The translations under genes were made by a program, and so were the position numbers. A DNA stretch of 59,213 bases from a virus, in IMG/VR virus record IMGVR_UViG_3300047495_000062, positions 1 to 59,213 of that record. One strand, written 5' to 3'. Below are positions 3,311 through 31,154 of the stretch, one piece after another (the stretch's first letter is position 1; each line of letters begins with the position of its first letter). The notes beneath the pieces were generated by a model, which did no database searches, was not told the DNA's origin, and saw only the letters and a list, made by a program, of their open reading frames with translations.

Positions 3311-4831
3311 ATGAGCATTTGGGGCGGCAATGGCATGACTTCGGAAACGAAGGACATGCTCAAGAGTGCCCTCGGCAATCCTTTGGACGGCCGAGACTAC
3401 AAGACGCCGATGCAGAAAGGTGTTTCCCTTTCCTACGGCCTGACGTACTATGATCTGCAGGCTCCTGCCAAGAACCTGTATCCGATCATCACGCCTCTCC
3501 GCAACGCAGTGCCGCGCATCAAGCGCACGCACCCCGGCGATGCGACCCACTGGAAGCAGGTCAACTCCATCCTCGGTTCCGGCTACGACGCCATGGGCTG
3601 GGTACCGGAAGGACAGCGCTCGGGTACGATGTCGTATTCGACCAGCAACAAAAGCGCCTCCTACGTGACGCTGGGCGAGGAAGACTACCTGACGTTCGAG
3701 GCCGAAAGCGCTTCGGAAGGCTTCGAGGATGAGAACTCGATGGTCACCTTCCGTCTCCTACAGAAGGCTATGCGTAAGGAAGAAATGGCGATCCTGGGAG
3801 GCAATGCAAGCCTCCAGCTGGGTACGCCCGCCACGCCGACCGCTTCCGTTTCCGGTACGGGCAATACGTTGCCGTCGGCCACCTACCTCACCTCAGTCAT
3901 GTACCTGACGTTCGAGGGCTACAAGAACTCAAACATGACGAACGGTTGTGCGACCAGCAAAACCATCACGGGTGCCGAAGGCAAGACCTTCGTCCTGAAT
4001 GGAGGTAGCTCTTCGCCGTCTGCATCCGTCTCCCAGGCCGTTACTTTGGGTGCTGCCCTGAACCTGGTCGCGACGACCAAGCCGGGTGTGATGGCCTATG
4101 CCTGGTATGTCGGTACCGCAGGCAATCAGGTTCTGCAGGCGATCACGACCACCAACGTTCTGACGATCACGGGGCCCTTGGTTACCGGTACGCAGACCTT
4201 GGCTTCTGTCGGTACAGCAGACAATTCTGCCAACCCGAATCTGGCCTTCGATGGTCTGCTCACGCAGGTCCTGAATCCAGCCAACCTCGGCTACGTCAAC
4301 TACCTTGCAGCCGGCGCTACCCTTACCGCCTCCGGCAAGGGTTCGGTCAATGAGATCGACAACATGCTGTACACGATGTGGCAGCAGTACAATCTCGGGC
4401 CGACCGTGCTCTGGGTCAATGCTCAGGAACAGAAGAACATCACCACAAAGGTGCTGTCCAACTCTTCAGGCCCATTGCTGCGTTACGACCAGCCTGCCAG
4501 CGGCGCCCAAGGCGGATACAGCCTGACCGCCAACGGTCAGGTGGAATACTACTACAATCCGTTCACGGTCGACGGCGGCTACAAGCTGCCGATCAAGATC
4601 CATCCGGACATTCCGCCCGGCACGATCATCGGCTGGTGCGGAGAGCTGCCTCCGTGGTATCAGTCCAATGAGGTGCCGAACGTTGCAGAGATTCTGCTGC
4701 GTCGGGACTACTACCGCATGGACTGGCCTCTGCGTACCCGTCAGCGTGAGTATGGCGTGTACATGGAAGAAGTGCTTGCCGTGTATGCTACGTTCGCGAT
4801 GGGCGTCATCTCGAACATCACCAACGGCTAA
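3311..4831 (+). CDS. Major capsid protein (HK97-like fold predicted)
   Basis: 506 residues. The N-terminal part has a typical capsid pattern: residues after about 40 read as LYPIITPLRNAVPRI, followed by WVPEGQR and a long helix ending RKEEMAILGG. The C-terminal part has PGTIIGWCGELPPW and a Met-Asp-Trp-Pro segment near the end, as in many phage capsids. Between roughly residues 175 and 300 there is a Thr/Ser/Gly-rich beta-type insertion that looks like an Ig-like surface domain. The gene follows the protease-scaffold gene and is followed by a perfect 10-bp hairpin. Codon use is visibly more GC-rich and uniform than in neighbours, consistent with high expression. Confidence 0.92.
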   Translation: MSIWGGNGMTSETKDMLKSALGNPLDGRDYKTPMQKGVSLSYGLTYYDLQAPAKNLYPIITPLRNAVPRIKRTHPGDATHWKQVNSILGSGYDAMGWVPEGQRSGTMSYSTSNKSASYVTLGEEDYLTFEAESASEGFEDENSMVTFRLLQKAMRKEEMAILGGNASLQLGTPATPTASVSGTGNTLPSATYLTSVMYLTFEGYKNSNMTNGCATSKTITGAEGKTFVLNGGSSSPSASVSQAVTLGAALNLVATTKPGVMAYAWYVGTAGNQVLQAITTTNVLTITGPLVTGTQTLASVGTADNSANPNLAFDGLLTQVLNPANLGYVNYLAAGATLTASGKGSVNEIDNMLYTMWQQYNLGPTVLWVNAQEQKNITTKVLSNSSGPLLRYDQPASGAQGGYSLTANGQVEYYYNPFTVDGGYKLPIKIHPDIPPGTIIGWCGELPPWYQSNEVPNVAEILLRRDYYRMDWPLRTRQREYGVYMEEVLAVYATFAMGVISNITNG

Positions 4832-18151: not shown

Positions 18152-18424
18152 TTAAGACCTTCTCTTGATGATGTTGTCGTTTAACTGTGCCTCAAGCTGT
18201 TCGAGTTTACCTCCCTTGACTACTCCTTGACGGATGAAGGCCAAATGTGTCAGAGCTGTGCCTACTGACAACACTTGTGTGGTATGGCCCTGCCAGCAAC
18301 GGGAGACTTCCCAGTACAATCCGGTGGCTTTGGCCAATTCTGTCTTGATGACGATTTCACCTTTACCGCTAGTAGGATTTAACCAAGACATAGCCCCCTC
18401 CTGCTTTACCAAGTTCAATGTCAT
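18152..18424 (-). CDS. Small unknown protein coupled to DNA polymerase
   Basis: 90 residues. Its ATG overlaps the polymerase stop (ATGA), with an aaggag site 8 bases upstream inside the polymerase gene, so the two are translationally coupled. The protein is soluble, with a Trp-rich N-terminal part and a helical Gly-Gly-Lys-Leu-Glu-Gln-Leu-Glu end. I do not recognise the family. Confidence 0.72.
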   Translation of the reverse strand: MTLNLVKQEGAMSWLNPTSGKGEIVIKTELAKATGLYWEVSRCWQGHTTQVLSVGTALTHLAFIRQGVVKGGKLEQLEAQLNDNIIKRRS

Positions 18425-20880
18425 GATACCAACTCCTTACGCCATATAGACCATCTACGCCCTACGTCGGCTTCTGCAACAAACCCTACAGCAGTAAGGC
18501 CCCATTCAACTGGAATGGCTTGCATGCATTTAACCAGTATGTCTTTAGCCTCCTTGATCAATGCAGGATCGTCGGGACCTTCAAACATGATTTCGTCATG
18601 GACAATGTTAACTGGGAAGAATCCCAAGCATGCCAGAAGAGGTCTAGCCTTAGCAGCTCCCAGGATGTTAATGTCAGAGGCGATTGCCTGATGTGGAAAG
18701 TTAGAAGCCTCATTCTGCAGATCCCGTAGGTTCTCCTGGGTGACAATGTGGTGGCGTTTCTTCCGCCCGAAAGGTGTGAGCATCGTCTTACCCTCAAGGA
18801 CACAATCCCTACAGCTCTGTATAAACTTCTTTGCCTTAGGCGAACGGGCAAACCAAACTTCAATCCAGCGACGAGCCTCTTCTGGAGGGATGTTGAACTC
18901 CTCAGCTAGGCTCTCTGCAGTACGCCCATACACAATGCCGAAATTCACTGCTTTAGCACGCATCAATTCATCTTCGGCCTTGACCTCTTTCCTCTTATAC
19001 CTTTCTAACCAATCTCCTCCAAAGAAGTCTTTGGCAGTTTCCTTATGCAGGCTACGTTTACTGTTGGGGCTATATACCTCCAACAGGTAATCATCCTTCG
19101 ACAATAGTGTCAGAGAACGAAGCTCAGCCTGATTTAAGTCTGCCTTGATATAGACACGTCCTCGACCGGCATAGAACATCCCCCGTATTCTACGGTCCCG
19201 AGGTTGATTCTGCATGTTCGGCTTCCGAGAAGATAACCGTCCAGTCCGGGTACCATGGATGAGGTATGTCGCATGGACCCGGCCATCTGGACGGGTATGC
19301 TTCTCCAAGGAATCGACATAAGTAGACTTCGCCTTAGCTGCCTTGCGGTAGGCTTGTATTGCTGCCACCACAGGATGTTTCGCAAGATCGTCAAGATGAT
19401 CAGCATCTGTCGACCTATCGCCCGCCCGCTTGGGCTTAAGTTTGATGACATCATACAATAGGACCGCAAGTTGAGTTGGGGAATTGGGATTAACACTTGC
19501 GGACCCATACTTCTTGCAGACAGCATTAAGGCGTAGTTCGGCATCATCAATTTCCTTTTGCAGACGCTTCCTATTAACCTTGACAGCCAGAGGGCATAGC
19601 TCCAAACCATTCTGCTCAATGTGGTAGAGCAGTTCGCTGGCAGGCAGAAGTACCCTGGTATAAAGGGTCTCCAACCTCTTATCACGAGCCACCCACGGCC
19701 TCATGATCTGCCAGATCTGCAAGGTATTACTTACGTCGAGACTAAGATACTTATACAACACGTCTTTTGGGATGACTCGGTAGGAGGTTTTCTTATTTGG
19801 AAGGTATGGTTTAAGCATATTCTTGTAATCAGGTGCTCCGATAAGATCTCCTGCGACCTGTTCAAGATCATGGATCCCACCTCCCTCGTCAAGAGCGTAA
19901 GATAGGAGCATAGTGTCTTCTCCGACACTAACCCTCTCACATCCGGGAAGCTGTCGCAGGAAGCCGATATCGAACTTACCATTATGCCATATGAAGCGGA
20001 TAGAAGGACGACGGAAGAGGATCCCGAGAATATGCACGTACTTCTCAGGAACAACGAAGATGCGTTTGGGGTCAGCGGCCAAGCCGATGCACAGGATTTC
20101 ATCAGCTCCTTTTCCATCTGGACCATTCCAGCGGTTAAATCCTCCGGTCTCAATATCTGCTGCAACGTACTTTGCATTCCAAAGTTCCCTTACACATTGC
20201 GCCAACTTCTGGAAGGTGTCACATATCATTACGAAGTCAGGTTCTACAGGGCGCTTAAGGGCGAACTCACCTCTTGTAGCCAGGTCAACGGCATAGAACA
20301 GATCCATCTTGAACTGTCTGTAATTCCCTGTGCCTCTGAGAAGGGCTGCAGGATGAATTACTGGAAGTATGCCTAGACGAGAAGCATTGCTAGGTATCAG
20401 CTTACCACGCACCATAGTGATCTTATGGCCATAGTTGCCTGTCACCGAATGCAGAGCATGGTTACCCATAGTAATGATGATCTCACGAGGATGCTCCAGG
20501 ATCTGCCCCATCAAACGTTGATTGCAGATCCGAACACCTTGGGATAGCCGAGCTGTATTCTTTTGGGCGCTCTCGCCTATCTTACCTCTAGGAGGCAAGC
20601 ATTGCATTGCATTCAGAACGTAGATGTCTTCATTTGCATCTAGTCCTGCAACTCTCAAGGCTTCGCCAATTGTATTCCAGAACACTTTGCCGCTAGGGCC
20701 GAATAAAGGTATACCTGTAATTAGTTCTTGGGTACCTGGGGCCTCTGCGACTACAACTATTCTGGCTTTTGGATTCCCACGTGAGCCAACACGTGGGCCT
20801 CCAAAACAACACTCTGCACACGGAACCGTGGTATCGACCTTCTTAGGCCTATTACGGTCAGGTGTAAGAATTGTTGCCAT
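18421..20880 (-). CDS. Uracil-DNA glycosylase-like domain fused to family A DNA polymerase
   Basis: 819 residues in three parts. Residues ~20-200 resemble family 4/5 uracil-DNA glycosylases: AEAPGTQE, LNAMQCLPPRGK, HPAALLRG, and four cysteines (21, 24, 94, 119) placed to bind an iron-sulfur cluster. Residues ~215-400 form a 3'-5' exonuclease with DIETGG (Asp242, Glu244), HNGKFDIGFL and YLSLDV. The C-terminal half is a polymerase I-type domain: motif A KADLNQAELR, motif B RAKAVNFGIVYG, motif C VHDEI. No 5'-3' nuclease is present. It is the probable replicative polymerase. The glycosylase part may act as a uracil sensor during synthesis, which is inference. Confidence 0.93.
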   Translation of the reverse strand: MATILTPDRNRPKKVDTTVPCAECCFGGPRVGSRGNPKARIVVVAEAPGTQELITGIPLFGPSGKVFWNTIGEALRVAGLDANEDIYVLNAMQCLPPRGKIGESAQKNTARLSQGVRICNQRLMGQILEHPREIIITMGNHALHSVTGNYGHKITMVRGKLIPSNASRLGILPVIHPAALLRGTGNYRQFKMDLFYAVDLATRGEFALKRPVEPDFVMICDTFQKLAQCVRELWNAKYVAADIETGGFNRWNGPDGKGADEILCIGLAADPKRIFVVPEKYVHILGILFRRPSIRFIWHNGKFDIGFLRQLPGCERVSVGEDTMLLSYALDEGGGIHDLEQVAGDLIGAPDYKNMLKPYLPNKKTSYRVIPKDVLYKYLSLDVSNTLQIWQIMRPWVARDKRLETLYTRVLLPASELLYHIEQNGLELCPLAVKVNRKRLQKEIDDAELRLNAVCKKYGSASVNPNSPTQLAVLLYDVIKLKPKRAGDRSTDADHLDDLAKHPVVAAIQAYRKAAKAKSTYVDSLEKHTRPDGRVHATYLIHGTRTGRLSSRKPNMQNQPRDRRIRGMFYAGRGRVYIKADLNQAELRSLTLLSKDDYLLEVYSPNSKRSLHKETAKDFFGGDWLERYKRKEVKAEDELMRAKAVNFGIVYGRTAESLAEEFNIPPEEARRWIEVWFARSPKAKKFIQSCRDCVLEGKTMLTPFGRKKRHHIVTQENLRDLQNEASNFPHQAIASDINILGAAKARPLLACLGFFPVNIVHDEIMFEGPDDPALIKEAKDILVKCMQAIPVEWGLTAVGFVAEADVGRRWSIWRKELVS

Positions 20881-20889
20881 GACTAATCA

Positions 20890-21735
20890 TCAACCTCTAT
20901 GAACGCTAGTTCCTGTGGAAGCAACAGGGCTTGGTAGGGCTGCAGAGCGAAATCGAAGCATGTTCGATGCCCAGCTCCTTATGATGTAAAGGTTTGCAAT
21001 CGTCTCGGCCTCCACATTGTCAAAGTGACGTGTCCAGAAATCACCTCGTGGTCCTGGATCTACTTGGTCCAGTGATAGGAGCTTCTTATCTTGACCCATA
21101 CGAAGCGGTACCGCTGAGTCAATCCCCAAGACACCCCAAAGCTGCATTGCCTCGTAATCGTCCTTGATGCTGCTGCTGAAGCCCAACAGGTGTACGTATT
21201 TGCCGTAGAACCCGTGAAGTGGGAAGCTCCCTGTAAGCATCTTGACCAGAGGTACTCGGCTGCCGAGATCTTCCACTGCCGTACGGCCGATCCCCCAACA
21301 CCCGATCTTGTTGCCGAGAGCCGCGAAAAGCGCTTGTGCACACTCATACATCTCCAGATCGGTTCTGCCTTGGATTACACACATCCACCGTGTATCTGAA
21401 TTTGGCAGTTTGTACTTTGCTGCCATCTCCAGGCTCAGCTGGACCGTAGCCTTTGCGTCGCCTCGAACGTCCGGTAAGACTATCAGTTTAGGCTTGACGA
21501 TCTCAGCGGCATCCATGAGCATCTCTGGTTCAATGGGATGCCCAAGCTCGATCATCGAATTATCCAGGATCACCAAACTCGTCGGAGGAATGAAGCCCGT
21601 TTCTGGATCATAGTTGTGTGGCTGCTCCAGTACATCATGTGCCAACAGCAGATGATAAGTACCAGGAAGAAAATCTCCAATGGCCCTCAACTCCAAAAGC
21701 AATTGAGGAGGGGCTACAGGTGCGAACAAAGCCAT
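20890..21735 (-). CDS. dpdA: DpdA-type DNA guanine transglycosylase
   Basis: 281 residues with the tRNA-guanine transglycosylase core in a compact phage form. Visible are LDNSMIELG (Asp59), VLPDVRGD (Asp89), CVIQGRTD, WGIGRTA, KYVHLLGF and GIDSAVPLR. The Asp206 of the last motif takes the place of the nucleophile in the TGT signature Asp-Cys-Val-x-Pro-Thr-Arg. DpdA enzymes swap guanine in DNA for a 7-deazaguanine base. It lies in one leftward run with FolE, QueE, QueD and QueC, which make that base. An agg site precedes the ATG. Strong family and context support. Confidence 0.9.
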   Translation of the reverse strand: MALFAPVAPPQLLLELRAIGDFLPGTYHLLLAHDVLEQPHNYDPETGFIPPTSLVILDNSMIELGHPIEPEMLMDAAEIVKPKLIVLPDVRGDAKATVQLSLEMAAKYKLPNSDTRWMCVIQGRTDLEMYECAQALFAALGNKIGCWGIGRTAVEDLGSRVPLVKMLTGSFPLHGFYGKYVHLLGFSSSIKDDYEAMQLWGVLGIDSAVPLRMGQDKKLLSLDQVDPGPRGDFWTRHFDNVEAETIANLYIIRSWASNMLRFRSAALPSPVASTGTSVHRG

Positions 21736-21797
21736 TTTTCAAGTCCTCAAAAGAAGAGCCCCTTGCGAGGCCCTTATTCAGTCTAATGTCTTGCAGA

Positions 21798-22145
21798 TCA
21801 GGCGTAGGGATCTTCGGAGATCCAGCCTTCCCAACCGGACTTCTCGGCCTCAAGCAATTCGATCTCCAAGCCTCCGAGATGGAAGGTTTCCTTGGTATAG
21901 GTCTTCTTCCGATAGATATTGGTTCCTTGTGTCACGTAGACTGATACTGAATCGGGAACACCTTCGATATCCTGTGAGGAGCCTTGATGTGCATAAGGCA
22001 TCTCATAGCGTACCAGGATCTCCTTGACAGGAGAATCCATAGTCAGCTTGGTAGGCAATTCAAGCTCCGACAATGAGATATTGTCGGGAGTGGTCTCCAT
22101 CGCAACGGGCAGACGGCGAAGGTCGTTAACGTCCATCTTTTCCAT
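21798..22145 (-). CDS. Unknown protein inside the deazaguanine operon
   Basis: 115 residues from the ATG at 22145, chosen because a ggag site precedes it; the open frame continues upstream to an ATG at 22361, but that would overlap folE by about 150 bases. The protein is acidic, without membrane segments, and ends in a Trp-Glu-Gly-Trp-rich segment. It contains VSVYVTQGTNIYRKKTYTKE, a beta-rich piece. No family recognised. Its place between folE and dpdA makes a role near modification possible, but nothing in the sequence shows it. Confidence 0.6.
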   Translation of the reverse strand: MEKMDVNDLRRLPVAMETTPDNISLSELELPTKLTMDSPVKEILVRYEMPYAHQGSSQDIEGVPDSVSVYVTQGTNIYRKKTYTKETFHLGGLEIELLEAEKSGWEGWISEDPYA

Positions 22146-22212
22146 GGTGTCGTATATCTCCGGAAATAGTTGTTGAATATAGGTGTAGTCGTAGACTCGT
22201 GCCTCTGAAAGT

Positions 22213-22896
22213 TTATCCGTCAGTTTTAGCCTGACGAACAAGATCAAAGAACTCCTGTCGAGCCGCTGGTACGTCTCTAAACACACCTCGTAGGCTAGAC
22301 GTCGAGGTGGTGACTCGAGGAGAGTTAACTCCTCTGCAAGCCATGCAGGTATGTTCTGCATGAATAGTGATCATAGTTCCTGCTGCGTCAGCAACATTCT
22401 GTAGGGCGTCCGCGGTAGACTCACAGACAACCTCCTGTAAGGTGGGTCGAGAAGTTCCCATGGCTTGCACCAGTCTGGTGAGCTTGGATAGGCCGACAAC
22501 CTTTCCTCGAGGAATGTATCCGACATTTGCTCTTCCCAATGCTGGTAGTAGGTGGTGTTCACAAACCATGCGGAATGGAATGTTTGCTTGCACCACCATA
22601 GAGTGGATGCCTCCCATGCTTGGAGCTACATCAAACAGTTCCCCGAGCACTTCAGCAGGATCACAAGGCTGATTGAACTCCACCAGGTACCTGATGAAGC
22701 GTTCAGGAGTATCAGCCATACCAGGAGGTAGGTCTTCGTAGCCATAAAGGGCCTTTATGACTCGCTGCATGTGGTCTGCCGCAGCCATATGGTCTGGCCG
22801 ATGAATCTTCTTGAACCTGGAACTGTAGACAGGCATCACAGTCTCAGGCTCTACTTCTCGGCTTGCTTGTCTTGGCATCCTTGGCAACCTTGCCAT
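22213..22896 (-). CDS. folE: GTP cyclohydrolase I
   Basis: 227 residues, full length for type I GTP cyclohydrolase. Zinc ligands are Cys112 and His115 in VCEHHLLP and Cys184 in HTCMACRG. Other family parts are MADTPERFIRYLVE, FRMVCEHHLLPALGRANVGYIPRGKVVGLSKL and QERL-like helix substitutes. It opens GTP to dihydroneopterin triphosphate, the first step of 7-deazaguanine synthesis. The start has a gggag site 8 bases upstream; queE ends two bases before the RBS. The C-terminus is about 40 residues longer than usual and rich in Ser/Thr/Arg. Confidence 0.94.
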   Translation of the reverse strand: MARLPRMPRQASREVEPETVMPVYSSRFKKIHRPDHMAAADHMQRVIKALYGYEDLPPGMADTPERFIRYLVEFNQPCDPAEVLGELFDVAPSMGGIHSMVVQANIPFRMVCEHHLLPALGRANVGYIPRGKVVGLSKLTRLVQAMGTSRPTLQEVVCESTADALQNVADAAGTMITIHAEHTCMACRGVNSPRVTTSTSSLRGVFRDVPAARQEFFDLVRQAKTDG

Positions 22897-22898
22897 TT

Positions 22899-23870
22899 CT
22901 ATACTCCCTTAGCATGTGACCAAGCTAGGACATGCAGTTGTGGAAAGAGGTGGACATCGAACAGATCAGGCATCTTGCAGACCTTCTCAGCTAGGTCTTT
23001 GAAGTCTTGGCATATGTTGTGTCTAATACCTGACTGAGAAAAGGCTGTCTCAGAATGCGGGTACCTTTCATCTTCTGGGGGTCTTGCTGTTCCCACAGAC
23101 AAGTAGAAGGGTATACCTGGGAACTTTCGATGTAAGCTGCGAGCGAACTCTAGGTCTTCATCGGTAAAGATGACAACCTTCAAACACTTCTGCTGCCAAG
23201 GGACAGCTGACAACATAATGGAACTAAGTATCTTTATGTCCAGTTTCTTATCCATCCCACTGCTAGGAGGTTTCGGTGAAACCGTTACACAGGAACAAAA
23301 GTTAAGCCACTCAGGGAAGAACTGGCCTTGGGTTTCGACCGCGATCTGGTAGTGAGCTTTTCCGAGCTCACCTACTAGTTCATTGAGGTCATGCATACAG
23401 GGATCACCCCCACTCAAGGTAACCCAAGGCCTTGAAGGTGCTCCAGGAGTCAGGTCTATGAGTGCCTGGACAATTTGTTGGGAGTTCATCTGCTTGGCAT
23501 TGGCCTTGATCTGGACAGGATCAACGGCATTCATGGAGTCGCACCAGGTGCACCTATACCCGCATCCACCAAGTCTGATGAAATGGGACACGGTTCCAGC
23601 CATCATCCCCTCACCTTGAATGGTGGGCCCAAAGAGTTCGACTACCGGAAACTTTTTGGCATTACGTACGAAGAACCCTTTAGGCTTGAGTGCTGCACGG
23701 GTAGCTTCCGACATATCATACTCTCTGGGCCCAGACATCAGTAGCTCCTGTAACCGCGATTGGCAAGCCTGTACTTTACAAACAGTACAGGCCCTAAAGC
23801 AAACAGGGTCTTTGTGGGACGCCTCCAGATGCCAAGACCCCAAGACATCGGAAAGATTGTGATACCCCAA
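22899..23870 (-). CDS. queE: 7-carboxy-7-deazaguanine synthase (radical SAM)
   Basis: The core shows GPTIQGEGMMAG, FIRLGGCGYRCTWCDS (Cys103, 107, 110, the radical SAM CX3CX2C cluster), VTLSGGDPC and VSPKPPSSG. It turns 6-carboxy-tetrahydropterin into 7-carboxy-7-deazaguanine. The start is uncertain. A TTG at 23870 gives 323 residues with an unusual Cys-rich 44-residue N-terminal piece (CFRACTVCKVQAC). An ATG at 23738 with a perfect aggag site gives 279 residues, closer to the family. I give the longer form because the gap would otherwise be 142 bases in a tightly packed operon and its content looks coding. Confidence 0.9.
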   Translation of the reverse strand: MGYHNLSDVLGSWHLEASHKDPVCFRACTVCKVQACQSRLQELLMSGPREYDMSEATRAALKPKGFFVRNAKKFPVVELFGPTIQGEGMMAGTVSHFIRLGGCGYRCTWCDSMNAVDPVQIKANAKQMNSQQIVQALIDLTPGAPSRPWVTLSGGDPCMHDLNELVGELGKAHYQIAVETQGQFFPEWLNFCSCVTVSPKPPSSGMDKKLDIKILSSIMLSAVPWQQKCLKVVIFTDEDLEFARSLHRKFPGIPFYLSVGTARPPEDERYPHSETAFSQSGIRHNICQDFKDLAEKVCKMPDLFDVHLFPQLHVLAWSHAKGV

Positions 23871-23880
23871 CCATGCAGCA

Positions 23881-24438
23881 TCACACTACTCCTCCGGCTC
23901 CGTGTATGCGTGGAAAGAATTCAGCCTTGCAGTTGGGTGTCTCCCAAACTTCGACACCCGCCAGCTGAGCTAGACCCTTTGAAGCCTGATTGACAGGCCC
24001 CTCCATGATCTCGAACCAGAAGCGGGCAAGGCATTCGGCTGTTGGGATGAAAGGTACTACCAGAAGTTTGGTCTGTGTACCTCTCACCCCTTGAACCCTG
24101 ATAGACTTCTTGCCGGTATCAAGCTGCTGCCTGATATGCTGCAAGTTGTCTGTCTTCAGAAGAGGCTCCAGCATCGGGTCATCTATGAACATGATCATGC
24201 CATGATCACAGGGCTCATCGATGAACGTCATCATGACGTCCTTAAGAAAGCCGAAGTCCAGACCCATGTCCGTCTGTTCCCCTGAAGTGTGGAGTTCAGA
24301 AGAGTAGCAGTGTGCCAAGATTCTGTACCTGTGCCCATGGAGGTTGGCACATTTGCTTCCATGGGTTGGGACTCGATGCCCTGCATCGATCCCGATTTCT
24401 CGGGTGACTGTGAAGACACCTTCTGCATGCCCCGCCAT
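23881..24438 (-). CDS. queD: 6-carboxytetrahydropterin synthase
   Basis: 185 residues from the ATG at 24438 (TAATG overlap with the queC stop). Zinc and catalytic residues are visible: His21 in IDAGHRV, Cys30, His34 and His36 in KCANLHGHRY. LDFGFLKDVM and CDHGMI complete the pattern. It converts dihydroneopterin triphosphate to 6-carboxy-tetrahydropterin. It is longer than most QueD proteins (about 120-140 residues), with extra segments around residues 100-130. An open frame extends upstream inside queC but has no coding character. Confidence 0.92.
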   Translation of the reverse strand: MAGHAEGVFTVTREIGIDAGHRVPTHGSKCANLHGHRYRILAHCYSSELHTSGEQTDMGLDFGFLKDVMMTFIDEPCDHGMIMFIDDPMLEPLLKTDNLQHIRQQLDTGKKSIRVQGVRGTQTKLLVVPFIPTAECLARFWFEIMEGPVNQASKGLAQLAGVEVWETPNCKAEFFPRIHGAGGVV

Positions 24439-25178
24439 TATGCCGCTTCCTTGGTGTTCGTGTACACCGTCGGATCGATGAGGTCTGCTTCGAGGAAACT
24501 GCCTTTCCTTGCTCGGCAGGTGGGGCAAGTCCCGCAATGTTGCATTCCCCCTGCATAGCAACTCCAAGTCTTCTCGTAGGGTACTCCCATATCCGTACCC
24601 AGGCGAACGATCTCGGACTTCAGGTTGTGGATGAAAGGCGTGATCAGTCGAACGCGGTGATAGGTGCCGATGTAGATTGCAGCCGCCATCGCCCCGACGA
24701 ATTCCGGTGTACAATCCGGATAAGCCCAGTTCTGGGCATCCTCAGCATGAGCACCAAACCAGATCTGGGCTTCTGCTGTCATGCCCGCAATCTTGCTCTT
24801 GGTGCGTGGGTACAAGGCATCCTGCTCCATGACCCAGCCCTGGGCGATGCCTGCGATACGACTCAGGAGGCTGCCATTCCGAAACGGAACGTATGTCGGT
24901 GAGATACCATGAGGCAGGTCAGCATAGCTGCTATCGGGGATCTTGGATTGATCATCCGTCAGCATGCTCTTCGGAGGCTGAGACATATTGATGATGATAC
25001 GGTCGACGCCGTAATGGTCAGCAAAGTCATCTGCGAAGTCTGCTTCGCGGATATGCCGTTGACCGTAATTGACCCCGACGCTCAGGACATTTTCTTTGCC
25101 CAGCTCTTTGACTGCCCGAGCCAGACAGGTGGAAGAATCGATCCCGCCACTATGGAGGATGAATGCACGAATACTCAT
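24438..25178 (-). CDS. queC: 7-cyano-7-deazaguanine (preQ0) synthase
   Basis: 246 residues. The N-terminal PP-loop is HSGGIDSSTCLA (residues 9-20); YGQRH follows; a zinc site is formed by Cys207, 215, 218 and 221 near the C-terminus. It makes preQ0 from 7-carboxy-7-deazaguanine, ATP and ammonia. No amidotransferase domain is fused, unlike the Gat-QueC of phages that carry dG+. This points to preQ0 itself as the inserted base. The ATG has a ggag site 8 bases upstream and the gene heads the queC-queD-queE-folE run. Confidence 0.94.
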   Translation of the reverse strand: MSIRAFILHSGGIDSSTCLARAVKELGKENVLSVGVNYGQRHIREADFADDFADHYGVDRIIINMSQPPKSMLTDDQSKIPDSSYADLPHGISPTYVPFRNGSLLSRIAGIAQGWVMEQDALYPRTKSKIAGMTAEAQIWFGAHAEDAQNWAYPDCTPEFVGAMAAAIYIGTYHRVRLITPFIHNLKSEIVRLGTDMGVPYEKTWSCYAGGMQHCGTCPTCRARKGSFLEADLIDPTVYTNTKEAA

Positions 25179-25273: not shown

Positions 25274-25510
25274 TTAAGGAGGGTTGTCACCGTATCTGAG
25301 AAAGCGTTCTACCTCCTCGAGGTAGATGCGCCAGATGCCGTCGACCTTGATACCCTCAATCTTGCCTTCGGTGCATAGACGTTCAACCGTCTTGATACCA
25401 AGACCAGACATGCGAGCTACCTCAGCCAACGACATCCAACCACGCATAGCAAGCAGGACTATACGATGTACCTGCTTTAGCTTCTCAGGGTCGGGTTCCT
25501 TAGCCGGCAA
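25274..25510 (-). CDS. Excisionase/MerR-type helix-turn-helix protein
   Basis: 78 residues with MSLAEVARMSGLGIKTVERLCTEG followed by IKVDGIWRIYLEEVERFL, the typical arrangement of small excisionase-like DNA-binding proteins. The start is probably TTG at 25510, overlapping the previous stop, with gaaggcggg just upstream; the RBS spacing is short, so an internal ATG is possible. It lies between the DUF669 gene and queC and could regulate the modification operon. This is inference. Confidence 0.72.
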   Translation of the reverse strand: MPAKEPDPEKLKQVHRIVLLAMRGWMSLAEVARMSGLGIKTVERLCTEGKIEGIKVDGIWRIYLEEVERFLRYGDNPP

Positions 25511-26066
25511 ACCCGCCTTCAGTGTTCAAGGGCGCAAGCACGTCCTTGATCTCGTTCCGCCAGTTGCCTTCGTACTTCCGCTTGCCGAGTTTCAGTCGGC
25601 ATTTGGCGCCGAGCAGACGACCTTCTTCTGCGACGACACCGGGCTTGAAGTTGGTCTTCAGGAGCTGTTCCTGATAGTTCTCGTCTGCACGGATACGCGC
25701 CAGAGTCTTCTTCACGCGAGAGAGGCCGCCTTCGTTGAAGGTGGTGTAGTAGTATTGCCGACGACCGTTGACCTTCTCATCTTCGTAGCCTTCGATCTCG
25801 AACACCCACGTCCACATCCAGTTGCCAGAGCGTTGGCTCTTGCCATACTCCAGGCTGAAGACGTTGGCTTCATAGATGCCATCCGGCAGTACCGGAAACT
25901 CCTGCTCGGAAGTACCGGAGAGGTCTACGACAAGACCCTCACCATCTTCTGTCTCTGCAGTCCCTTCACCGTCATCGGCTGCATTGAAGCTGACCTCGCC
26001 ACCCTCTGTGAAGGTGTCAGCGTCTTCGACTTCGACTTCGGTCTCAGGTGTTTTGACTTTAGTCAT
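25500..26066 (-). CDS. DUF669-type single-strand DNA-binding protein
   Basis: 188 residues with a perfect aggaggctat site. The first 60 residues are strongly acidic; the rest has the DUF669 pattern: LPDGIYEANVFSLEYGKSQRSGNWMW, FEIEGYEDEKVNGRRQYYY, and a C-terminal KLGKRKYEGNWRNEIKDVL. Such proteins take the place of a single-strand DNA-binding protein beside Sak4-like ATPases. The gene is next to that ATPase here. In this copy the acidic tail is at the N-terminus rather than the C-terminus. Confidence 0.8.
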   Translation of the reverse strand: MTKVKTPETEVEVEDADTFTEGGEVSFNAADDGEGTAETEDGEGLVVDLSGTSEQEFPVLPDGIYEANVFSLEYGKSQRSGNWMWTWVFEIEGYEDEKVNGRRQYYYTTFNEGGLSRVKKTLARIRADENYQEQLLKTNFKPGVVAEEGRLLGAKCRLKLGKRKYEGNWRNEIKDVLAPLNTEGGFAG

Positions 26067-26128
26067 TACTATAGCCTCCTAATAGGGGAGCGTCCACAAC
26101 GGCGGCTCCCTGCAACAACCTAGTCTTA

Positions 26129-27250
26129 CTAGGCTGTAGCGGTTTTCCTCGGGCGCACCAGCCGAGGGCACTGGCTTGCTTCGAGATACCCGACATCAAC
26201 CATGATTGATCCGATTGTAGGGTTATCGAAGTAAGGCTTTTTGTACCTGGAGAAGCGTGCCTTGGCAGCATACTTTGGCGTAGGAGAAATATACATCCTC
26301 CTCGGAGGCAGCTGGCTATCATCTGCTGCCTGGCCAATCACCAGATACCCAACTGTATCCATGAAGCCCTGGACTTGCCCTGCAAGTTTACCAGTCATCA
26401 TGGGTGAAAAGATTTGACGTTTACTCTCATCCTGAATGTAGCCCCTGGCACACGTAAACAGGATATGCAAAGGCAGATCTCGGAAGTTACGAATGAGACG
26501 CTGCACCATGGTGTGCTGCTTCTTGTACTCAGCCCATTCGGCCCCTTGAACTTCTTCATCCACCTTCGTAGCATCATTGACGCCTAGAAGCTGTTGCATG
26601 CAATAGACTTCAGCCTCCGTAAGGCTATCCATGATGACAGTCTGGTAGCGACGAATACGACCATCTTCTTTCAGGTTTGGCATCACCTGTTTCTGCAGAT
26701 CCCAGAGGCGCTTATCCTTTTCGGTCTCTGATATGTCGGCATCCCGAATAGAACAATGCGCCTTGAAGAAATCATACGTCCTGGCTATCTGTTTGTAGTT
26801 TGTCGTCCGAAGAATATCGATAAGACCAAAGTCATGGTCCGGATCATCAGGATCAAGAGTAAGAGTACCACCCTCAGCAGAAATAACGGCAACATCACGC
26901 ATACAAGGAACATCAACAGCTGTACCCATAAGCCAAGTCTTACCAGCACCATACTCTCCATAGACTAGGGCATTGAGACGGGGTACTTGGACAACTGCAG
27001 AAACATTCTCTCTTATCTGGAAGATCGGTCCTGCTTTGATAGGGCTTGTAGGACTGTCTGCTGTCTTTGCTGCCATTTTAGCAGCCTCGGTTGGCTGACT
27101 CCGTACAGGAGCTGCAGTAGTAGCCCCTGGAGAAACAGGGAGCTTGACAGTAGATGATCCATTCGGGACATTCACGCCGACGGCCCGTGCGGGAGTTGCA
27201 ACCAGTCCGCCGGTTCCTGCTGGTTTGGCAGTTCCAGATATTTCAACCAT
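26129..27250 (-). CDS. Sak4-like RecA-fold ATPase
   Basis: 373 residues. Walker A is GEYGAGKTW at about residues 103-111. VIMDSLTEAE is a Walker B-like segment and HILFTCARG a sensor-like strand. The N-terminal ~85 residues are Ala/Pro/Thr-rich linker. Sak4-type proteins are phage single-strand annealing/recombination ATPases, commonly paired with DUF669 SSB-like proteins, as here. The ATG at 27250 has a tgagga site and lies 79 bases inside the previous gene, an unusually long overlap. A later ATG (27079) would avoid most of it. Confidence 0.83.
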   Translation of the reverse strand: MVEISGTAKPAGTGGLVATPARAVGVNVPNGSSTVKLPVSPGATTAAPVRSQPTEAAKMAAKTADSPTSPIKAGPIFQIRENVSAVVQVPRLNALVYGEYGAGKTWLMGTAVDVPCMRDVAVISAEGGTLTLDPDDPDHDFGLIDILRTTNYKQIARTYDFFKAHCSIRDADISETEKDKRLWDLQKQVMPNLKEDGRIRRYQTVIMDSLTEAEVYCMQQLLGVNDATKVDEEVQGAEWAEYKKQHTMVQRLIRNFRDLPLHILFTCARGYIQDESKRQIFSPMMTGKLAGQVQGFMDTVGYLVIGQAADDSQLPPRRMYISPTPKYAAKARFSRYKKPYFDNPTIGSIMVDVGYLEASQCPRLVRPRKTATA

Positions 27251-28494
27251 GAGTTATCATCCTCAGATCTATCGACAGTTGAATACTCCATCTCGCCAAC
27301 CCAGTCCGCCCCATCGTCCTTATTGATGCATGCCTGATGAAAGGATGAGCATCTCCAAGAACAATCCCTTGTAGGGTTAGGGTAGATTGGCAGGTTGGGA
27401 TTGAGCATATCACAAGCCTCTTGCACTAAATGCTTTTGAGTGTTCATGATTTGGTGCCTGTTACGCTCTACGAAGTCACGGCGGATGAACTTATCTTGAC
27501 TGTCACCCTCCTGTTGTGCAAGCATATCAAGGAATTCAAGGTTGGCTTTTGGTGACTTTGTAATAGACCCATACATGTTCTTGAGGGCCTTGTAATACAG
27601 TGGGCGAGTAGTCACCTGGTTCTTGGCTACTGAGAATGCTCCTGTCGAGGACAAGAACCTAGGCTCATCAGGGACCTGCTTCTTATGCTGTTGATATACG
27701 AACCCAGCAATCTCCATTCCTGGATATAGAATGCTTGCAGCCCAGGTGTATAGGCTAATCTGGGGGTCTGTATCGAAATGTCCTGTTTCGAAACGTGCTG
27801 CCGTTTTATAGTCCAGGATCCAGAGACGCCCGAGCTCATCAATAATGATCCTGTCCATTGTCCCCGTAACAACTGCCTCATCCCATCCATAGGCCTGGAG
27901 TATATCCTCAGGGATAGGTAAGGAAATTCTAAACTTAACCTCTGTCTGTGGAACCCCATTGACGTGGTAAGTTCGTAAGGGATCACGGCTTCCCAGCCAC
28001 ACTTCATAATACCGAAGCATCCTTATACCGAGATCCACCAACTGCTCATGGTCGGTAGGAAGATTAGCCCTAGAATCCCTCTTACTCCATTTAACCCAAG
28101 CCATGTGATAGGCTCTAAGGGCTTCTTCTCCATTAGGGAACTTCCGGAACCCATGTCTATCTTCCAAAGCCCAATGAATAGCTGACCCGAGCCACAGAGG
28201 ATTGGCACGTGCCTTCCCTGTACGATTACCTCTATGTACCCAAGACCAATCCCACTTACGTCTGCACTCTTTGAACGTGACTCGGTCAGAGTTCCTTATG
28301 AAGGCAACCCTTCTTGGCAGTAATCCATTTCCAGGGTGAGATTCGGTCCCAAGGCGCGGCTTAACCTTACTCCAAAGGGTGAACTGTTCAGCACCCAGGG
28401 TTACGATCGGGTTCTCAGGTGTGAAGTCATTGAAAGTGCTATCAGGACTTTCATCCCAACCGGCTCCTCCAAAGTCATCATCCACCATTGCCAT
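27172..28494 (-). CDS. PD-(D/E)XK nuclease, RecB/Cas4-like
   Basis: 440 residues. The core reads LGSAIHWALED, then VTGTMDRIIID, then LWILDYKTA and DPQISLYTWAAS, which are the ordered motifs of RecB-type nucleases (metal-binding Asp, Asp, Lys and a QxxxY helix). Near the C-terminus DCSWRCSSFHQAC, plus an earlier Cys, could bind an iron-sulfur cluster as in Cas4/AddB proteins. It lies in a recombination group with the ATPase and SNF2 helicase. The ATG has a gggaggc site and a near-consensus promoter just upstream. Confidence 0.86.
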   Translation of the reverse strand: MAMVDDDFGGAGWDESPDSTFNDFTPENPIVTLGAEQFTLWSKVKPRLGTESHPGNGLLPRRVAFIRNSDRVTFKECRRKWDWSWVHRGNRTGKARANPLWLGSAIHWALEDRHGFRKFPNGEEALRAYHMAWVKWSKRDSRANLPTDHEQLVDLGIRMLRYYEVWLGSRDPLRTYHVNGVPQTEVKFRISLPIPEDILQAYGWDEAVVTGTMDRIIIDELGRLWILDYKTAARFETGHFDTDPQISLYTWAASILYPGMEIAGFVYQQHKKQVPDEPRFLSSTGAFSVAKNQVTTRPLYYKALKNMYGSITKSPKANLEFLDMLAQQEGDSQDKFIRRDFVERNRHQIMNTQKHLVQEACDMLNPNLPIYPNPTRDCSWRCSSFHQACINKDDGADWVGEMEYSTVDRSEDDNSWLKYLELPNQQEPADWLQLPHGPSA

Positions 28495-28519
28495 ACTCTA
28501 TCTGCCTCCCGATTCTAGT

Positions 28520-28548
28520 ATTATACAATGATGTCATAAGGAAATCAA
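28520..28548 (-). promoter_or_regulatory. Leftward sigma70-like promoter
   Basis: On the - strand: TTGATT (28548-28543), 17-base spacer, TATAAT (28525-28520). Starts about 20-30 bases before the nuclease gene. An AT-rich ATTAAAATAATTT block lies about 20 bases upstream of the -35. Confidence 0.75.
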
Positions 28549-28572
28549 GGAAGAAATTAGGCGGTGTCCAAA

Positions 28573-30036
28573 TTATTTTAATGATCCTAAACCCTGTTGG
28601 AGCATACGGCGGACATTGTCGACATTATGTAAGGTACGATTGGTATAGACGGTTTTCGAGTTTAGAATCTCCCACTGTTCTTGATCCGTCACAGCATTGT
28701 TGTGCTGGATGTAATAGAAGTTGACAGGGAGGACAGTTGTAAGACGGTGCTGACGATCTTCCGCCTGTTTATTCTCTTCAGGGTTATACTCCGCCCCAAG
28801 AAAGACACCCCATGAAGCCGTGTCAAGGTCAAAACTCTCCGCGAACTTAATAGATACCAATGCAATGCTGCCATGAGGGGCGTTCTTCTTGAACCTAGTA
28901 AGGGCTTCATCCAATGCTAACGTATCCATACCCCCTCGTAGTTCGATGATATGGTTTGGATCATACCCTTCAGATTCAAGGCGGGCTCTCAGAAACGGAA
29001 ATACCTTTGGGAAGGGTGTATAGATACACATGTGGGTAGAGTCGGCCTCTTCTAGCTTCTCGACAATCCAATCAATACCAGCACCATCAGGAGCACCAGG
29101 ATCGAGTAGCTTAGGGCAAACCAGAAGTTGCCTGAGACGAACAATCCTAGCCAAGACAGTAGGGCTAACAATAAGAGAGCCTTCAGTAAGTTCTGCAAGA
29201 GACTGTTCCAACAGTTGAACATAGACTTTCCTTTGCCAATCTGTCATATCGATGTACACGGGTTCCCTTTGCTTTTGCGGAAGCTCTGAAGCCACCTCAA
29301 GTTTGGTGCGCCGAATAAAGTAGCCTGCGAGTTGCCTCTGCAGCTCAGGAACGTTCTTAGGTCCTAGAAAAGCCTTCCCACCAAAGACCTGATCCACTGT
29401 ATGGACGTAGGAATCAATAAAACGCCAGTAAGAAGACCAAGTACGGCGATCAAGAAGATGCAGCAGGCCCCAGAGATCCTGTGGACCGCGCTTAACAGGG
29501 GACCCCGTGCAGATGATAAACCAGGGCGACTGGAGCCTTTTGAGGGCCGCATAAACTTTGGTCTTCCTGTTCGCGTGCTTGTGGGCTTCGTCGGTGAAAA
29601 TAACTTGCCAGAATATTGGCACATATCCAGCAGCCATATCTCTGACGAAGAGTTCTCGGGTACAACAGACAAAAGCATCCGCATTCCTTGTACACTGTTT
29701 CCATTTAGCCATACGTACGGCAGGCGTTCCAGAGATGCGAACAGGCAGTTGAAGTCCCCAAAATGGTGCCAGACGCCACCATGTGTAGAGAGCATTATTT
29801 CCAGCAAGGAGTAACGCTGGTCCCAGACCACCATTACTGGAGGCATCGGCTCGTCCTGTTTCTGCCCTACGAGATTTACTGAGCCTGACCCATATTGAGT
29901 ATGCCACTCCTGTCTTGCCGAGACCCATCTCGTCCGCAAGTATAACTCTACCTGGGTGTATGATACGACCTCTGGTAATGGCATGGTTAACAGCTTCCTC
30001 TTGAAAGGGTCTTAGAGTATATCTCTCTTGCTCCAC
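28573..30036 (-). CDS. SNF2-family helicase
   Basis: 487 residues, starting at GTG with a gagg site. Motif I is ADEMGLGKTG (residues ~33-42), motif II TDEAHK, motif III ICTGSPVKRGPQDLWGLLHLLD. Later are SIKFAESFDLDTASWGVFLGAEYNPEENKQAEDRQHR (abridged here as motifs V and VI). It is the compact phage type lacking extra domains. Such enzymes move along double-stranded DNA and are common in phage replication-recombination groups. It is read after the short gene behind the ligase. Confidence 0.9.
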   Translation of the reverse strand: MEQERYTLRPFQEEAVNHAITRGRIIHPGRVILADEMGLGKTGVAYSIWVRLSKSRRAETGRADASSNGGLGPALLLAGNNALYTWWRLAPFWGLQLPVRISGTPAVRMAKWKQCTRNADAFVCCTRELFVRDMAAGYVPIFWQVIFTDEAHKHANRKTKVYAALKRLQSPWFIICTGSPVKRGPQDLWGLLHLLDRRTWSSYWRFIDSYVHTVDQVFGGKAFLGPKNVPELQRQLAGYFIRRTKLEVASELPQKQREPVYIDMTDWQRKVYVQLLEQSLAELTEGSLIVSPTVLARIVRLRQLLVCPKLLDPGAPDGAGIDWIVEKLEEADSTHMCIYTPFPKVFPFLRARLESEGYDPNHIIELRGGMDTLALDEALTRFKKNAPHGSIALVSIKFAESFDLDTASWGVFLGAEYNPEENKQAEDRQHRLTTVLPVNFYYIQHNNAVTDQEQWEILNSKTVYTNRTLHNVDNVRRMLQQGLGSLK

Positions 30037-30037
30037 C

Positions 30038-30211
30038 CTACTTTTCCTCTGTATGCGACATTACAAACAGAGCCGTATCCAGACTACTGTTGCAAGCATT
30101 GTAGTGCCCAATGAACTCCCCCATCAGCTCGATGAACCTTTTACGTTCTTCCTGCCGGATAGAAAGGATGGCCCCCTCCATACCTTCAGTAGTAGTCAGA
30201 TCATGTTCCAT
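30038..30211 (-). CDS. Small unknown helical protein
   Basis: 57 residues from the ATG at 30211, one base after the ligase stop, with gaagagg inside the ligase end as RBS. It is highly charged and predicted as two helices (SIRQEERKRFIELMGEFIGH). The next gene starts one base after its stop. No family recognised; coding support is from RBS, spacing and codon pattern. Confidence 0.62.
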   Translation of the reverse strand: MEHDLTTTEGMEGAILSIRQEERKRFIELMGEFIGHYNACNSSLDTALFVMSHTEEK

Positions 30212-30212
30212 G

Positions 30213-31154
30213 TCAGTGTACCTCTTCGCCTTCATGAAGGAAGACAGGATGTCTTGGAGCTACTCCTGGTGTGGAGCCGTGCACCATGTATTTGTACGTG
30301 AACCGTCTGCCCTCCAGCTTGTGACGCTCATTGAACAGACGGGTCCTGAGATCGGCGTCCAGCCCAGAGCCGCAACTAAAGCTCCAATTATGACCAGTAC
30401 TATCATCCCGAGCCAGAAGGTTACCCACCATATCGACAGTGGTTTTACCCCCCTTCTTGGAGGATCTGACCTGGAACCCTCGGGTATCGGTTGTTGCTTC
30501 ATTTTCATTCCTCTCTAGGAGTTCATAGCCTGTAATGGTAGCTGTACTACGGTCCCATGCTTTCACCTTGAGCATGGCAGCTTCTCTCATTGTAGCACGA
30601 CCCTGCTTGTACTTGGATAGCAGATCCCGTATAATAAGACCTTCATAGCCAGTCTCTGCCGCCTGCAAAACGAGTTCTTGTACCTGACTAGGATCTCTCA
30701 AAGGCACCTGGGGGATCACCCAGATATCAGACTTCACAGAGACAGATAGTTGCTGCAGTACTCTCTTGTTTACTGAACGTAGGCGGCCGTCGTAAGTGGT
30801 TGAGGCATTGACATCATCGAAGACACACCACGTTGCCTTTACTTTGTCGGCGATCGATGTCACAGCCATTGCTCGCTTCATGGTGTCAGGACCATAAGGC
30901 AACCCCACTACAAGCTCTCCATCCAGTCCTGCAAGCTCTCCACTTTTGAACTGGTTCTGGACATAGACGTTCCGGATAGGTTTCATCGACCGAGACATGA
31001 GCACCCCATTGAGGTTGGTTGCTCGAATGCCGTCGATCTTCCAGGAGGCTACATACCTACCAGGATGTGCTCGTACCAGGCTGCGTAGGAAATCCATTCC
31101 AGGAACCTGTGATGTAGCCAACATGGGACGGAAAGGCTTATTTGCAAGGCTCAC
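30213..31154 (-). CDS. ATP-dependent DNA ligase
   Basis: 313 residues, starting at GTG with a ggggag site 8 bases upstream and GTGA overlap with the previous stop. Motif I is SWKIDGIRA with the adenylated lysine near residue 39; LDGELVVG is motif III; CVFDDV motif IIIa; YEGLIIRD motif IV; MLKVKAW motif V. The C-terminal ~100 residues form the OB-fold. It is short, like other phage ligases, with no extra DNA-binding domain. It seals nicks in replication or recombination. Confidence 0.92.
   Translation of the reverse strand: MSLANKPFRPMLATSQVPGMDFLRSLVRAHPGRYVASWKIDGIRATNLNGVLMSRSMKPIRNVYVQNQFKSGELAGLDGELVVGLPYGPDTMKRAMAVTSIADKVKATWCVFDDVNASTTYDGRLRSVNKRVLQQLSVSVKSDIWVIPQVPLRDPSQVQELVLQAAETGYEGLIIRDLLSKYKQGRATMREAAMLKVKAWDRSTATITGYELLERNENEATTDTRGFQVRSSKKGGKTTVDMVGNLLARDDSTGHNWSFSCGSGLDADLRTRLFNERHKLEGRRFTYKYMVHGSTPGVAPRHPVFLHEGEEVH

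Follow-up and report, generated by a model that had tools for sequence, protein, structure and literature searches.

The DNA considered here, IMGVR_UViG_3300047495_000062, is a linear IMG/VR contig of 59,213 bases without end repeats, from a bacterial virus that is represented by environmental sequence only; it was analysed over its whole length (the window). Its minus strand carries an operon with the order queC, queD, queE, folE, an orphan open reading frame (ORF), dpdA and polA, in which dpdA encodes a compact protein of 281 amino acids (aa) that is predicted to act as a DNA-guanine transglycosylase. The 7-cyano-7-deazaguanine (preQ0) that this operon would make is probably put into the phage DNA by the compact DpdA as an anti-restriction measure. 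During infection, FolE, QueD, QueE and QueC would convert GTP to preQ0, and the compact DpdA would swap guanine in the phage DNA for it in a base exchange like that of TGT, with D206 as the putative nucleophile and D58 and D89 as candidates for base recognition and acid-base work. The product, 2'-deoxy-7-cyano-7-deazaguanosine (dPreQ0), would shield the genome from host restriction enzymes. The system is already known in kind, and the refinement lies in a compact DpdA in a clade of phages without QueF.

All genes of the original prediction were recovered on the minus strand where it had placed them, and strong matches to Pfam families and TIGR03365 agree with its preQ0 gene set. The queC gene (24438..25178, 246 aa, 7-cyano-7-deazaguanine synthase) matches PF06508 at 8.6e-48. 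Its stop shares one base with the ATG of queD (23881..24438, 185 aa, 6-carboxytetrahydropterin synthase), which matches PF01242 (PTPS) at 2.4e-26 and the PHROG QueD family at 8e-30. The queE gene (22899..23738) scores 223.1 bits against TIGR03365 with a cut-off of 206.1; it starts at the ATG at 23738, which is preceded by AGGAG, within a longest frame that begins at 23870. For folE (22213..22896, 227 aa, GTP cyclohydrolase I), PF01227 (GTP_cyclohydroI) was matched at 1.1e-42. The compact dpdA gene (20890..21735) was assigned from an alignment of 46 family members, from hhalign comparisons with DpdA1 and TGT and from its context.

Searched alone against Pfam, PHROG, NCBIfam and PDB, the 281-aa protein gave no usable match. 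The profile of the 46-member family was aligned by hhalign to a DpdA1 profile built from ten phage proteins at E 2.5e-5, to E. coli TGT at E 5.7e-5 and to a TGT profile at E 8.4e-5, whereas the controls (shuffled or reversed TGT, unrelated window proteins) reached E 0.026 or worse. The catalytic motifs are colinear in these alignments: LDNS..ELG is paired with LDSGAFSA..LG, PDV.GD..T with LDGIGDPLQT, HLLG with HAFG or LMGVG, and IDSAVP with CDSSSW or FDCVMP. The last pairing places D206 on the nucleophile of TGT, the identity of which is well established, and D58, D89 and D206 are in register with the aspartates of TGT and DpdA at the level of remote homology. When PDB was searched with the profile, the DNA-guanine transglycosylase 7ui4 ranked first, at E 0.021. 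With scores better than those of the controls and aspartates in register, the proposal of a compact DpdA with TGT-type acidic motifs holds, and the protein very probably belongs to the TGT/DpdA superfamily, through a remote link. PF01702 (TGT) was dropped as a test for DpdA after it had also missed the proteins of CAjan and Dp-1; since the CAjan DpdA escapes it, its silence on the window protein is uninformative.

The DpdA1 profile matched none of the window ORFs at E 10. CAjan and Dp-1 were detected with it, whereas ten phages with the compact family, CP220 among them, gave no match and have the compact protein as the sole DpdA candidate found. Judged by its sequence, the window enzyme is a member of a compact DpdA subfamily that is separate from the DpdA1 type of CAjan and 9g. 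We take this family to be the published DpdA3 subfamily.

Relatives of the 281-aa protein were found by tblastn in the Brevundimonas phages vB_BpoS-MaInes (MaInes) and StAshley (34%, deposited as 'hypothetical'), in Bacillus BSTP phages, where one copy is labelled 'NadR', and in Flavobacterium immuto phages, where the annotation is 'DNA guanine transglycosylase'. The immuto protein in turn shares 43-44% identity with a protein deposited as hypothetical in the Campylobacter phages CP220, CPt10 and CP21, so that a chain of homology runs from the window protein through immuto to CP220. A scan of IMG/VR with the single protein as query gave no match; a profile of five sequences yielded 233 related stretches, and the 80 best of these were retained. 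In the alignment of 46 members, twelve positions never vary (P9, L31, H33, I56, D58, N59, S60, E63, H182, L183, G185, D206) and four are almost constant (P88, D89, Q122, G123). The window protein is homologous over the whole family length of about 265 aa and has the LDNS, PD and HLLG motifs as well as D206; its TGT-type motifs hold D58, D89, Q122, H182 and D206. The two clades of the family are separated by positions such as F186/C, S207/T and R212/V, which have no established tie to base choice.

The association of this family with preQ0 synthesis is conserved. In 20 of 20 loci of the window clade with enough flank, all four preQ0 genes adjoin dpdA (three more, with flanks cut by contig ends, were left out), and in these contigs dpdA forms the end of the preQ0 gene cluster. 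The usual order in the clade is exonuclease, Sak4-like AAA, DUF669 single-stranded DNA-binding protein (SSB), optionally a helix-turn-helix (HTH) gene, queC, queD, queE, folE, dpdA and polA. The distance between dpdA and polA is at most 300 bases in 27 of the 80 loci. The window and the Brevundimonas phages group in a clade of 19 rows (support 100/100) when 52 family members are placed in a tree. A single change suffices to explain the presence of QueF on this tree: the window clade shows no QueF, its sister clade has QueF, and the members that bear it lie on the far side from the window. Among the 80 loci, QueF is found in 31 (IMG/VR loci L031-L082, beside the compact dpdA), and all 31 also have a gene for a GART-like formyltransferase.

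The apparent absence of late-step enzymes bears on the identity of the base. At 246 aa, QueC consists essentially of the QueC domain alone and thus has no amidotransferase domain. Searches of the window record found no homologue of QueF (PF14489), the Gat domain, GART or a DpdA1-type protein; ArcS was not searched with a model of its own, and the contig is possibly incomplete. The searches agree with the earlier statement that QueC has no amidotransferase domain and that a QueF-like gene is missing. The preQ0 group of phage 7-deazaguanine modification, the second group in the published scheme, has FolE, QueD, QueE and QueC and no Gat-QueC, ArcS or QueF-L (PMC6884629). The window encodes all four of these enzymes, and neither a QueF gene (dPreQ1 type) nor a Gat domain fused to QueC (dG+ type) was found. 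Escherichia phage CAjan and Mycobacterium phage Rosebush have the same gene set, namely DpdA with FolE, QueD, QueE and a QueC without amidotransferase, and dPreQ0 was measured in their DNA at levels near 32% and 28% of G, respectively (PMC6884629), which counts for dPreQ0 in the window phage. Their enzyme, in contrast, is DpdA1, and tblastn with the CAjan protein misses the compact family.

Several points weigh against insertion of preQ0 as the final outcome. The profile of the window clade on its own is weak, with E 0.016 against TGT and 0.011 against DpdA1. The best-studied relatives of the enzyme, those of Campylobacter phages, belong to phages with 7-amido-7-deazaguanine (dADG) instead of dPreQ0; in CP220 and CPt10, dADG is reported in place of all dG (PMC8306585). 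Moreover, several related records of 62-75 kb are longer than the 59,213-base contig, so that, end repeats being absent, a few genes may be missing from it and a late-step enzyme could be among them.

Since CP220 and CPt10 share the DpdA family of the window yet have dADG, insertion of this base by the same machinery has to be considered, either through release of 7-amido-7-deazaguanine (ADG) by QueC or through later hydration of dPreQ0. ADG is an intermediate of QueC (PMC13329287), and for phages with a gene set of the window type either preQ0 or ADG was predicted. The QueC sequences, however, speak for preQ0. The canonical, experimentally refined signature of QueC (cluster 1) comprises SGGxDS, YxQxHxxE, VPxRN, YPDC and the zinc cysteines (PMC13329287). 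The window QueC has SGGIDS, YGQRHIRE, VPFRN, YPDC, CY and CGTCPTC, with C(x)7C instead of C(x)8C as the first zinc spacing, and the signature is intact in most of the window clade as well. CP220 QueC departs from it at two sites, with YGSNH for YxQxH and FPDC for YPDC (records L088, CP220, and L097), and these changes may possibly be the cause of a halt at ADG. The canonical motifs of the window support preQ0, with the limit that a single dADG lineage is available for this comparison and that it is not proof. In addition, CP220 and the window stand on opposite sides of the deepest division in the DpdA tree, and CAjan and Rosebush have dPreQ0 with the same gene set. We therefore regard dADG in the window phage as unlikely. 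The preference of the original prediction for dPreQ0 over dG+ and dPreQ1 is upheld; its argument had left out dADG as a known alternative, against which the QueC motifs argue. With four biosynthetic enzymes, no QueF or Gat, canonical QueC motifs and TGT-type motifs, dPreQ0 is the best available prediction for the DNA of this phage. The status of the QueC motifs, canonical in phages without QueF and altered in CP220 and many QueF-bearing phages, offers a candidate sequence rule for the end product.

Altered QueC proteins are also seen in many phages that have QueF and a GART-like gene, where YGQKQ occurs with YWDT or YHDT or the zinc cysteines are lost; such loci include L031, L036, L051, L053, L055, L069, L079 and L098.

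Slightly less likely still is that preQ0 is inserted and then converted to dPreQ1, dG+ or another derivative, through the action of the host, of a phage protein not yet recognised or of an enzyme encoded off the contig. The missing end repeats and longer relatives leave room for such an enzyme, as do the many window ORFs without any family match, and the sister clade carries QueF together with the GART-like gene. However, QueF was above the cut-off in none of 18 whole records from QueF-less lineages, where the sub-threshold matches coincide by coordinates with folE genes, and homologues of Gat, QueF and GART were not found in the window. It is very improbable that the DNA is left unmodified, with the operon raising preQ0 for queuosine in host tRNA and the 281-aa protein in another role. 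In favour of this reading, there are phages that encode preQ0 synthesis but no DpdA, for which a boost to queuosine has been suggested (PMC6884629), and the DpdA assignment is one of remote homology. Against it, genes of the 281-aa family are linked to those for preQ0 and often to a DNA polymerase gene, and the family lines up with TGT and DpdA1 over the catalytic motifs and supplies the sole DpdA candidate of CP220, whose DNA is modified.

If dPreQ0 is the base, the extent of replacement becomes of interest. In work on DpdA3 and DpdA4 by Cui et al. in 2023 (Nucleic Acids Research), the DpdA3 subfamily was reportedly named and said to allow complete replacement of G. As the compact family includes phages with all G replaced, total rather than motif-limited substitution is conceivable in the window clade. 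The DNA of Campylobacter phages resists enzymes with G and C in their sites and is cut by enzymes with A/T-only sites (PMC6481058), as expected of complete replacement. CP220, however, stands across a deep family split from the window, so that extending complete replacement to the window is a guess, and the highest levels of dPreQ0 in the earlier survey were about 28-32% of G (PMC6884629). That the compact DpdA of the window clade swaps nearly every guanine for preQ0, giving a fully cyano-deazaguanine genome, is thus a tentative suggestion that we consider rather doubtful.

Avoidance of restriction sites was examined as a sign of complete modification and set aside: the signal is suggestive, but host and composition confound it. 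Hexamer palindromes containing G are hardly avoided in the window, with an observed-to-expected ratio of 0.95 (5-95% range 0.90-1.00), or in close relatives (0.96); the ratio is 0.69 in 9g and CAjan. In a pair of phages from the same host, MaInes with dpd genes (0.88) is not separated from Polewnik, in which none were found (0.84), and the signal is accordingly weak. A/T-only hexamer palindromes seem under-represented in the window (mean ratio 0.59 over 8 motifs, with small numbers). Rare A/T-only sites beside unavoided G-containing ones are what would be expected if only A/T-only sites remain cuttable.

MaInes and StAshley are among the known phages closest to the window. Their DpdA belongs to the same clade, with 37% aligned identity, and their gene order is exonuclease, AAA, SSB, DNA-binding, queC, queD, queE, small ORF, dpdA and polA. 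In contrast to the window, their folE lies elsewhere, with genes for a dNMP kinase and for a xanthine phosphoribosyltransferase as neighbours; the DpdA of both phages is annotated as hypothetical only, and their capsid genes are unrelated to its own. In the Brevundimonas phage Polewnik, preQ0 and DpdA genes were not detected in the 50 kb searched. CP220 and CPt10 likewise have a compact DpdA and preQ0 genes, but they belong to a sister clade and their dpdA lies apart from the preQ0 genes. The Flavobacterium phage vB_FspM_immuto shares the compact DpdA and differs in having QueF and a GART-like gene and a QueC without zinc cysteines. Enterobacteria phage 9g (dG+) has a broadly similar replication and preQ0 cassette with homologous FolE, QueD, QueE, QueC, Sak4 and ligase, but it has DpdA1 and a Gat-QueC of 471 aa instead of a plain QueC, and a homologue of its Gat domain was not found in the window. 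Phages with predicted 7-deazaguanine DNA modification thus gain a clade made up of IMG/VR contigs and of two Brevundimonas phages that have been isolated; its type of enzyme has no name in Pfam, PHROGs or NCBIfam and is labelled 'hypothetical' or even 'NadR' by depositors. As MaInes and StAshley are isolated, base identity and extent (all guanines or motifs) are directly measurable in them.

The orphan ORF between folE and dpdA (21798..22145, 115 aa, minus strand) starts at an ATG at 22145 with GGAG upstream. The unrecognised gene noted earlier thus exists, but it is probably not a member of the pathway: no relative was found in phages or IMG/VR, and the stretch that separates dpdA from folE (or queE) is variable, being empty or filled with other small ORFs in relatives. 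A role in the modification core is unlikely. Two close relatives have a conserved protein of 60-61 aa (AY.FYDG..WLPKSQCEW) between folE and dpdA (L007:7812-7994, L008:7816-7995), which is not in the window.

The polA gene (18421..20880, minus strand), directly downstream of dpdA, encodes a DNA polymerase A (PF00476, 9.6e-67) with an N-terminal uracil-DNA-glycosylase domain (PF03167, 1.5e-19). By tblastn, this protein aligns near full length to MaInes/StAshley (39%) and to the Streptomyces phage Zuko (24%). The upstream part of the conserved cassette (25274..31154, minus strand) contains replication and recombination genes for an HTH protein, a DUF669 SSB-like protein, a Sak4-like AAA protein, an exonuclease, an SNF2 helicase and an ATP ligase. 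Their order is kept in relatives, and Sak4 and the ligase are homologous to those of 9g. A scan for promoters and terminators gave sites no more numerous than in shuffled sequences. The probable capsid protein (3311-4831) is 40% identical to its counterpart in Polewnik; together with the MaInes-like replication cassette, this indicates that the genome is mosaic. The host of the window virus may be Caulobacterales-like. In a metagenome-assembled genome with a contig carrying a compact DpdA (L104 / G019:C23), the tRNA-TGT gene has 13 in-frame TGA codons, which suggests TGA recoding in that bacterium.

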